The notes below the pieces were generated by a model that saw only the letters and a list, made by a program, of their open reading frames with translations, made no database searches and had not been told where the DNA came from. Source: an uncultured Verrucomicrobiota bacterium (GTDB taxonomy: Bacteria; Verrucomicrobiota; Verrucomicrobiia; Limisphaerales; UBA9464). From it: a DNA stretch of 64,000 nt. The position numbers and the translations under genes are program-made. Location of the stretch: contig CAIVQH010000020.1 of NCBI GenBank assembly GCA_903907995.1, positions 1-64,000 of the forward strand, written 5' to 3'. Numbering within the stretch: the first letter of the stretch is position 1; each line of letters opens with the position of its first letter. Positions 58,322-60,934 of this stretch are shown in pieces.

Positions 58322-58996
58322 TCAGCCCCGCTTCGGAGAAACGAAAACTTCGGGACCGGTCGGATGGTTGTCCAAGTCGAGATCATCACCCAAGTTGGTG
58401 AATTCAGGCTGCTCGAACTGGCCGGGAGTGAAGTCGGCCACTCCGCCGGCATCACCAACGGTGGGATCAAAGTACTGGCCCTTGCAAACGTTGAAGTCCT
58501 TGTCCTTGTACTTGACGTCCACGCAGCCCTCGAACACCACAATCTGACCCTTGGGGGTCACCGAGAACTTCGTGCCGCGGATGGCTGCCGTTGCGGTCGG
58601 CGTGGTCACGACATAGGTGGACTGCGAAGACTTCTTCACCACGTCACCTTCCATGCCGCCCGACTTCAGGGTCAGCGCGGTATGGGAAACCTGTTCAGCC
58701 CCGCCGTCATCGTACGTCAGGTCGGTGATCGTCAGCGCGCTCGACTCCTTGAGGTTGACGTAAGGCCCGTTGATGCCGAGGTAAAGGGATGCCTTGGAAG
58801 CGGCCTCCGTCTTGACGGTGGCACCGGGCGTTGCGATATCGCCCACCTTGGCGGCCGCAGCATCCAGCCAGACAGAACCTTCAACCTTCTTGAATTCCGC
58901 CTGACCGGTTTTTGCCGCTGCCATCAACGCGCCCGAAACGAGCGTGGATGCAGCCAACAGACTGACCGACCGAGTAAAGCTGCCAAACATGTTCAT
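58322..58996 (-). CDS. FecR-domain exported protein
   Basis: A 224-residue protein starting at ATG 58996 (MNMFGSFTRS), with a signal peptide to about residue 27. The FecR domain at about 60-165 has AKVGDIATPGATVKTEAASK, YVNLKESSALTI and, typically, YVVTTPTATAAIRGTKFSV. A C-terminal Asp/Gly/Pro-rich tail follows. FecR/CHASE2-cyclase gene pairs are known from several phyla; the FecR part may sense the envelope and pass a signal to the cyclase downstream. Confidence 0.87.
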   Translation of the reverse strand: MNMFGSFTRSVSLLAASTLVSGALMAAAKTGQAEFKKVEGSVWLDAAAAKVGDIATPGATVKTEAASKASLYLGINGPYVNLKESSALTITDLTYDDGGAEQVSHTALTLKSGGMEGDVVKKSSQSTYVVTTPTATAAIRGTKFSVTPKGQIVVFEGCVDVKYKDKDFNVCKGQYFDPTVGDAGGVADFTPGQFEQPEFTNLGDDLDLDNHPTGPEVFVSPKRG

Positions 58997-59033
58997 GGTA
59001 AAGCCTTTGAGATTTGATTTTTCGAACGCCGAC

Positions 59034-59127: not shown

Positions 59128-59155
59128 TTGCCGCCGCAAATCTGCACGCTAGCCT
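59128..59155 (+). promoter_or_regulatory. Weak candidate promoter of the cimA leader
   Basis: TTGCCG (59128-59133) and TAGCCT (59150-59155), spacer 16. A start near 59162 would place the leader-peptide ATG (59163) at or next to the 5' end of the RNA. The -10 resembles the TAGGCT proposed for gap. Confidence 0.3.
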
Positions 59156-59162
59156 CGCGGCC

Positions 59163-59276
59163 ATGGTGCTTGGCACAACGAGTTCGTCAACTGGCTTCTT
59201 CCGTTCTTCGGAAGCCGGTCCGGTCATCTCGATTTGCCCCATTAGCCCGATTATTCGGCACCCACAGCATCGCTGA
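59163..59276 (+). CDS. Isoleucine-rich leader peptide of cimA
   Basis: A 37-codon open frame starting ATG at 59163 and ending TGA at 59274-59276. Codons 21-31 read GPVISICPISPII-type sequence: Val 21, then Ile at codons 22, 24, 27, 30 and 31. Ile makes up 5 of 10 codons there, none elsewhere in the peptide. The start codon lacks a clear Shine-Dalgarno. The stop codon lies inside a segment able to pair with the downstream terminator. Together with cimA's role in isoleucine synthesis this is strong circumstantial evidence for a regulatory leader. It is not detectable as a protein family. Confidence 0.7.
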   Translation: MVLGTTSSSTGFFRSSEAGPVISICPISPIIRHPQHR

Positions 59277-59334
59277 ACGAGTTTCCCTTTTCCAAAAACC
59301 CCGTTCTGCGATGCAGCGCGGGGTTTTTCTTTTT
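59265..59334 (+). promoter_or_regulatory. Transcription attenuator of cimA: antiterminator and terminator
   Basis: Terminator: AAAAACCCCG (59294-59303) pairs with CGGGGTTTTT (59319-59328), with an inner CTGC/GCAG stem, followed by a T-rich run to 59334. Antiterminator: CAGCATCGCTGAACG (59265-59279), which contains the leader stop codon, can pair with CGTTCTGCGATGCAG (59302-59316) at 13 of 15 positions, which would break the terminator. A ribosome stalled at the Ile codons (59226-59255) would leave 59265-59279 largely free; a ribosome reaching the stop codon would cover it. cimA starts at 59369, 35 bases beyond the T run. Confidence 0.75.
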
Positions 59335-59368
59335 TCCAATCCACACCGCACTCCGACACCATCCACCC

Positions 59369-60934
59369 ATGAAGCCGAGCAAAGTTGAAATATACGACAC
59401 CACCCTCCGCGACGGCGCCCAGGCCGAAGGCATCAACTTTTCCCTGGCCGACAAGCTCCGCATCGCCGAACGGCTCGACCAGTTTGGCGTGCATTACATC
59501 GAGGGCGGATGGCCGGGCTCGAACCCTAAGGATATGGAATTCTTCCAGCAGGCCGCCAAACGCCGGTGGAAACATGCCCAGATCGCCAGTTTCGGCTTCA
59601 CCCGCAAAAAAGGCGTGGCCGTGGAGGCCGACCCGCAGGTCCGCATGCTCCTCGACGCCAAGACGCCGGTCGTGACCATCGTCGGCAAGACGTGGCTGCT
59701 GCACGTCACCGAGGTGCTGCGCGTCAAACCCGAGGAAAACCTGGGCATGATCGGCGACACCATCCGTTACCTGAAGGATCAGGGGAAGATCGTGGTCTAT
59801 GATGCGGAGCACAGCTTTGACGGCTTCAAGGACGAGCCCGAATACGCGCTCGCCACCTGGCAGGCGGCCGAAAAGGCGGGGGCCGACGTCATCTGCCTCT
59901 GCGAAACGAACGGCGGCGCGCTGCCCAGCGAGGTCAGCCGCATCGTCACCTTCGCCAAGGGCAAACTGAACGCCCGGCTCGGCATCCACACCCATAATGA
60001 CTGCGGTTTCGGCGTGGCCAATGGCATCGCGGCGCTGGAGGCCGGGGCCGACCACATCCAGGGAACGATCAATGGCTATGGCGAGCGCACCGGCAACTGC
60101 AACCTCACCAGCGTCATCCCCACGGTGCACTTCAAGATGGGCCGCCTCGGGGTGCCGGTGAAATCGCTGCCTAAGCTGAAGGAGCTTTCGGAGTTCGTGG
60201 ACGAGATCGCCAACGTCCGGCACGACACCCGCCAGCCGTGGGTCGGCCAGACGGCCTTCGCCCACAAGGGCGGCATCCACGTCCACGCCATCGAGCGCGT
60301 GGCCCGGAGCTACGAGCACATCGTGCCCGAGGCGGTTGGCAACCACCGCCGGGTGCTCGTCAGCGACATGTCGGGCCGGACGAACATCCTGCTCAAGGCC
60401 GCCGAGCTGGGCTTCAAGCTCACGCCCGAGGCGCCGGAAGCCCGCGCCATCACCACGCGGGTGAAGGATCTGGAATCGGCCGGCTACGAATACGAGGCCG
60501 CTGAGGCCTCGCTCGCGCTGCTCATCCGCAGCGTGCTGGATCAGAACCCGGAACTGCTGTTCACGGTGGATTCCTATCACGTTTCCATGCGGGGCAATGG
60601 CGCCAGCTCCGTCTGCGAGGCCACGGTCAAGGTTCGCGTCGGCAAGCAGGTGCATCACACGGTCGCGGAAGGCGACGGCCCGGTGAATGCGCTCGATGGA
60701 GCGTTGCGTACGGCCCTCGCCAAATCATTCCCCACCCTGAAGAAGATCACGCTGACCGACTACAAGGTCCGCATTCTCGATGGGGTGGCCGGCACCGCCG
60801 CCAAGACCCGCGTGCTGATCCAGTCCACCGACGGCAAGCGCGAATGGGGCACCGTCGGCGTCAGCGAGAACATCATCACCGCGTCACTGCAGGCGCTGGT
60901 GGACTCGATGGAGTACGCGCTGCTGGAGCACTGA
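59369..60934 (+). CDS. cimA: (R)-citramalate synthase
   Basis: A 521-residue DRE-TIM metallolyase. IYDTTLRDGAQAEGINFS at the start, GGWPGSNPKD, YDAEHSFDGFKDEPEYAL and HTHNDCGFGVANGIAALEAG mark the CimA group as against LeuA, which lacks GGWPGSNPKD and the AEHSFDG form. The C-terminal regulatory LeuA-dimer domain is at about residues 400-515. It condenses pyruvate and acetyl-CoA to citramalate, the first step of the threonine-independent route to 2-oxobutyrate and isoleucine. It stands behind a candidate Ile attenuator. The regulatory domain also allows feedback inhibition by isoleucine. Confidence 0.93.
   Translation: MKPSKVEIYDTTLRDGAQAEGINFSLADKLRIAERLDQFGVHYIEGGWPGSNPKDMEFFQQAAKRRWKHAQIASFGFTRKKGVAVEADPQVRMLLDAKTPVVTIVGKTWLLHVTEVLRVKPEENLGMIGDTIRYLKDQGKIVVYDAEHSFDGFKDEPEYALATWQAAEKAGADVICLCETNGGALPSEVSRIVTFAKGKLNARLGIHTHNDCGFGVANGIAALEAGADHIQGTINGYGERTGNCNLTSVIPTVHFKMGRLGVPVKSLPKLKELSEFVDEIANVRHDTRQPWVGQTAFAHKGGIHVHAIERVARSYEHIVPEAVGNHRRVLVSDMSGRTNILLKAAELGFKLTPEAPEARAITTRVKDLESAGYEYEAAEASLALLIRSVLDQNPELLFTVDSYHVSMRGNGASSVCEATVKVRVGKQVHHTVAEGDGPVNALDGALRTALAKSFPTLKKITLTDYKVRILDGVAGTAAKTRVLIQSTDGKREWGTVGVSENIITASLQALVDSMEYALLEH

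Follow-up and report, generated by a model that had tools for sequence, protein, structure and literature searches.

The locus upstream of cimA

The stretch of DNA analysed here (the window; 64,000 nt from an uncultured Verrucomicrobiota bacterium of the Limisphaerales) carries a gene for (R)-citramalate synthase, cimA, preceded by a short open reading frame (ORF) and an intrinsic terminator. The identification of cimA, first proposed in an earlier note made from the sequence, is borne out by a TIGR00977 match of 692.5 bits against a cut-off of 450. On the opposite strand, a gene that resembles FecR when judged by eye (58322-58997, -) runs divergently from cimA, and the intervening region therefore probably holds promoters in both directions. 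The features referred to below are as follows.

59128..59133, + strand: candidate -35 box, TTGCCG, 16 nt before the candidate -10 box
59150..59155, + strand: candidate -10 box, TAGCCT, ending 7 nt before the leader ATG; placed by consensus inference only
59163..59276, + strand: leader ORF of 37 codons with UGA stop; stop frame and Ile cluster conserved
59226..59255, + strand: putative regulatory Ile codons 22, 24, 27, 30 and 31 (positions -16, -14, -11, -8 and -7 from the stop)
59268..59284, + strand: predicted antiterminator 5' arm, comprising the last two codons CAUCGC, the UGA stop and GAACGAGUUU
59296..59313, + strand: predicted antiterminator 3' arm, AAAC...CGUUC-U-GCGAUG, equivalent to the terminator 5' arm plus the terminator loop
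59294..59335, + strand: intrinsic terminator hairpin and U-tract, from folding and leader comparison
59369..60934, + strand: cimA, (R)-citramalate synthase, the presumed controlled gene (TIGR00977, 692.5 bits)

The leader ORF (59163-59276) translates as MVLGTTSSSTGFFRSSEAGPVISICPISPIIRHPQHR followed by the stop, and the five Ile codons and one Val codon previously noticed within codons 21-31 are present as Val21 and Ile22, 24, 27, 30 and 31. Such a concentration is exceptional in the window: among 2290 stop-terminated frames, only this one contains at least five Ile per 11-codon stretch within its last 25 codons. The terminator hairpin (59294-59328, with its U-tract) begins 17 nt past the leader stop, and the 106-nt segment that contains it folds at -29.8 kcal/mol vs -18.6 ± 3.0 kcal/mol for shuffled sequences, in agreement with the claim that a strong intrinsic terminator follows shortly after the ORF. 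Around the Ile codons the window offers small hairpins only, and a conserved protector (1:2) hairpin, of the sort that would restore termination when the leader is untranslated, is not obvious.

The start of the leader transcript can be placed approximately by comparison with the leaders of relatives described below. In 16 of 44 leaders, an in-frame ATG or GTG is preceded at a distance of 34-38 nt by a TTGNC box, as against a single leader for out-of-frame starts, and this spacing suggests that transcription initiates at the start codon or close to it; the leader mRNA in the window may likewise begin at or near its AUG. In other leaders (the L004 group) a short untranslated region that contains a GAGGG motif seems to be present.

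Conservation of the leader and its isoleucine codons

CimA orthologues were gathered from 58 related genomes, and their upstream regions were read. The named relatives are Verrucomicrobiota metagenome-assembled genomes, many from freshwater, some of them labelled Verrucomicrobia subdivision 3, Limisphaerales or Pedosphaera. Within the window's own family a common element emerges: an Ile-rich ORF whose terminal UGA is fused to GAACGNGUUUUC, with GAAAACCCCGUUCCGC...GCGGAACGGGGUUUU next and cimA last, the cimA match starting 59-113 nt after the UGA. When a covariance model of the element was applied, matches above 52 bits appeared in approximately 40 of 50 genomes of the family; of the roughly 10 without a strong match, some are incompletely assembled or have a contig that breaks off within cimA. 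The model also finds the element outside this family, in five genomes from a second and a single genome from a third, and in all three families every readable match precedes cimA, save where the contig ends first. When 388 genomes sampled evenly over the phylum were searched with the model, nothing was returned beyond the window itself and a single plain terminator, the latter (G447, 42 bits) being so judged from a hairpin that lacks the TGAACG stop segment. Convincing copies before genes other than cimA were not seen in the family, order or phylum samples. Weaker matches in the family and order genomes (22-49 bits) proved, where inspected, to be ordinary terminators with no Ile leader, for example after rpsI-like and before tatA-like sequences (named by eye from their translations).

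The earlier note had predicted that an alignment of related leaders would retain the Ile cluster while other codons varied, and this pattern was found, with the cluster kept in one frame and at a fixed distance from the stop. Across 44 leaders, Ile occupies 160 of 616 codons (26.0%) at positions -7 to -20 in the stop frame, vs 5/616 (0.8%) and 13/616 (2.1%) in the other two frames over the same range, and the frame-specific enrichment recurs in all 11 genus-level groups. Ile is nearly absent from codons -1 to -6 of the first 31 leaders, in which -7 is its last common position; three leaders (L003, L032 and L044) have just one or two Ile codons within reach. The other branched-chain residues show no enrichment (Val 2.4% and Leu 3.4% of the last 15 leader codons), and the peptide varies except in its Ile density and stop-proximal codons. 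Codon choice is also distinctive: ATT accounts for 105 of 168 leader Ile codons (62%) but for 14 of the 142 that occur in five genes of the window's genome.

These patterns bear on three other ways to account for the locus. One supposes an ordinary terminator beside a frame that is rich in Ile by chance, with the cimA promoter located downstream of the terminator, and it draws support from order relatives without the element, in which a promoter-like TTTGC-N17-GTAGAAA lies directly before cimA. An ordinary terminator, however, would neither retain a frame-specific Ile cluster nor covary with the last codons of the ORF; moreover, the orientation of upstream neighbors varies while the element stays with cimA, and because those neighbors are often divergent there would be no transcript for such a terminator to end. 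We regard this explanation as very unlikely. Alternatively, the leader might act on translation or reinitiation, or the peptide might itself be functional, as was reported for the trans function of the attenuator leader peptide peTrpL (PMC7298713), rather than serve transcription termination; the absence of peptide conservation beyond Ile density and the stop-proximal codons, together with a terminator that is always found between leader and cimA, renders this exceedingly improbable. Equally hard to credit is a riboswitch, T-box or protein-binding leader that governs the terminator and to which the short ORF is incidental. Riboswitches and T-boxes of branched-chain genes do exist in other phyla (general knowledge; cf. 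PMC2494555, PMC8632094), but Ile conservation at cimA follows the codon frame, the conserved part spans only approximately 60 nt with no further aptamer-sized structure, and a search of Rfam returned no family at gathering score, T-box and other leader families included. At a relaxed threshold, the sole match was that of the terminator to the F6 sRNA family at 26.4 bits, below its gathering score of 46, and it was rejected.

Mutually exclusive structures and the proposed mechanism

Within the window sequence, 13 of 15 positions can pair between 59265-59279 (CAGCATCGCTGAACG) and 59302-59316 (CGTTCTGCGATGCAG), as the earlier note stated, with the small correction that the 3' arm of the antiterminator continues beyond the terminator 5' half into the loop. 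The antiterminator helix joins the last two leader codons and GAACG with the terminator 5' arm and loop, and the pairs made with the loop are possible only in the antiterminator. Covariation in the leaders, a check that the note had also put forward, is evident in this antiterminator-only helix, where 93 pairs are found vs 69 ± 4 in shuffles, a value reached by 0 of 20,000 shuffles, although kinship among the sequences inflates this test. A sliding control, which retains kinship, shows the register to be specific (85.7% of cells paired vs 31-52% on sliding), and the first base of the last leader codon engages in three standard pair types (CG, UA and AU) across the leaders. In five leaders (L004, L005, L010, L210 and L211) the inner helix GUUUUC/GAAAAC is apparently swapped for GGG/CCC, with pairing still possible.

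The minimum free energy fold of the full-length leader is the terminator in every case, with a mean of -27.1 kcal/mol vs -16.7 kcal/mol when the antiterminator is forced. Because the terminator is everywhere the more stable fold, readthrough would require the antiterminator to form ahead of it while the RNA is being transcribed, and antiterminators of attenuators usually do win by folding earlier.

The comparison supplies a conserved ORF stop, an Ile cluster specific to one frame, a terminator and an antiterminator that covaries; from these we infer the translation, stalling and termination events and the direction of the response. When Ile is ample, the ribosome would reach the UGA and mask the GAACGAGUUU segment just past the stop, preventing the antiterminator, such that the terminator folds and transcription ends ahead of cimA. 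When charged tRNA-Ile is scarce, the ribosome would instead stall at Ile codons 7-16 positions before the stop, and the exposed arm would pair with the emerging terminator 5' arm and loop, blocking the terminator and allowing cimA to be transcribed. Approximately 13 nt separate the first A-site base from the front edge of a ribosome. A ribosome stalled at the last Ile codon (Ile31) would accordingly have its edge at ~59267 and leave the arm exposed from 59268, whereas one positioned at the UGA would extend to ~59287 and cover the arm. With this footprint size, taken from general knowledge, the Ile positions, stop and antiterminator arm match the ribosome footprint, and the geometry of the leader fits closely with classical attenuation. 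The reading first advanced in the earlier note, of ribosome-mediated attenuation by Ile, is thus supported by the frame-specific Ile cluster and the covarying antiterminator: the leader in all likelihood controls cimA by ribosome-mediated transcription attenuation in response to charged tRNA-Ile, and, as judged from sequence comparison, very probably represents a clade-specific new family of classical ribosome-mediated attenuators.

Leaders of other branched-chain genes and relation to known systems

Comparable leaders, described from sequence only, precede other genes of branched-chain synthesis. Val/Leu-rich leader ORFs such as MQFGAQLVVVLVAGGDAAAGTVGA (then stop) lie upstream of ilvB in 17 of 17 loci examined, spanning several families of the order (L217-L234, including L229 from the window's own genome), with, in most cases, 16-17 nt between the leader stop and a CCCACG...CGTGGGTTTTTT terminator. 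Leu-rich leader ORFs such as VIRILSLRLIALALLLSRAMVGA (then stop) occur before a terminator at leuA (L261 from the window's own genome, and L262, L263, L266, L270 and L272). The TIGR00973 search returned cimA in the window's family, because leuA there is of another type, and leuA was taken instead from the weaker paralogue matches of the search for CimA orthologues. At the ilvB and leuA loci, as at 59128-59165 of the window, the leader start often lies ~6-9 nt past a candidate -10 box, as if leaderless. A Trp-rich leader with a terminator was not evident by eye at trpE. With ilvB (Val/Leu) and leuA (Leu) leaders in the same genomes, the branches appear to be sensed separately.

On CimA trees made by quick searches, element-bearing sequences cluster strongly. 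One genus (g7; L028, L291-L294 and L296) has the attenuator, yet its CimA protein groups with attenuator-free lineages; the mismatch would be accounted for if the coding sequence downstream of the leader had been replaced, or if the leader had been transferred, and we offer it as a lead from quick trees. We give an even chance to a broader scenario, in which Limisphaerales-type Verrucomicrobiota evolved, independently of other phyla, single-branch attenuators (Ile at cimA, Val/Leu at ilvB, Leu at leuA) whose leader ORFs are leaderless and whose regulatory Ile codons favor AUU, a codon that is otherwise rare, and one genus kept the cimA leader before a CimA coding sequence of another lineage.

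Leader-peptide attenuators control the ilvGMEDA, leu, his, thr and trp operons of E. coli. The cimA leader resembles these in its short ORF rich in codons for the pathway product, its mutually exclusive antiterminator and terminator, and the structural gene downstream. It differs in its target, cimA, in its reliance on Ile alone, in matching no Rfam leader model, in an antiterminator arm that includes the last two leader codons and the stop, and in having no obvious protector hairpin and possibly a leaderless start.

A 2010 survey noted that leader-peptide attenuation was known only from Proteobacteria and Actinobacteria and added the Firmicutes (PMC2965389); it has since been proposed for ilvB in additional groups (PMC10272879). 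The candidate attenuators of actinobacterial ilvB, leuA and trp were likewise predicted comparatively from leader peptides and terminators, but concern other genes in another phylum, and some were not borne out by mutation (PMC1262725). The ilvD leader of Staphylococcus aureus similarly carries Ile/Leu codons in an ORF upstream of a terminator; it is, however, Leu-dominated and controls ilv-leu, and its terminator lies 52 nt past the stop with an antiterminator that pairs the U-tail (PMC5794164). The Corynebacterium ilvB-II uORF, ilvB-OMG and Leptospira ilvB motifs share a leader peptide rich in branched-chain residues with a terminator and antiterminator, but precede ilvB, mix Ile, Leu and Val (and Thr), and belong to other taxa (PMC10272879). 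In keeping with the earlier note, no account of an attenuator at cimA or of a verrucomicrobial leader peptide was found in the searchable literature, outside which most subscription papers fall; this type of control is well established, but its occurrence at cimA and among Verrucomicrobiota appears to be undescribed. The cimA leader would extend leader-peptide attenuation to a phylum and a gene for which no report was found, and would provide a sensor responsive to Ile alone where the citramalate route begins. Considered with the leaders of ilvB and leuA, it opens the sensing of amino acids branch by branch to testing in a group that is known chiefly from metagenomes, and its combination of a short element with a variable peptide is a good case for studying how attenuators originate and move between genes.
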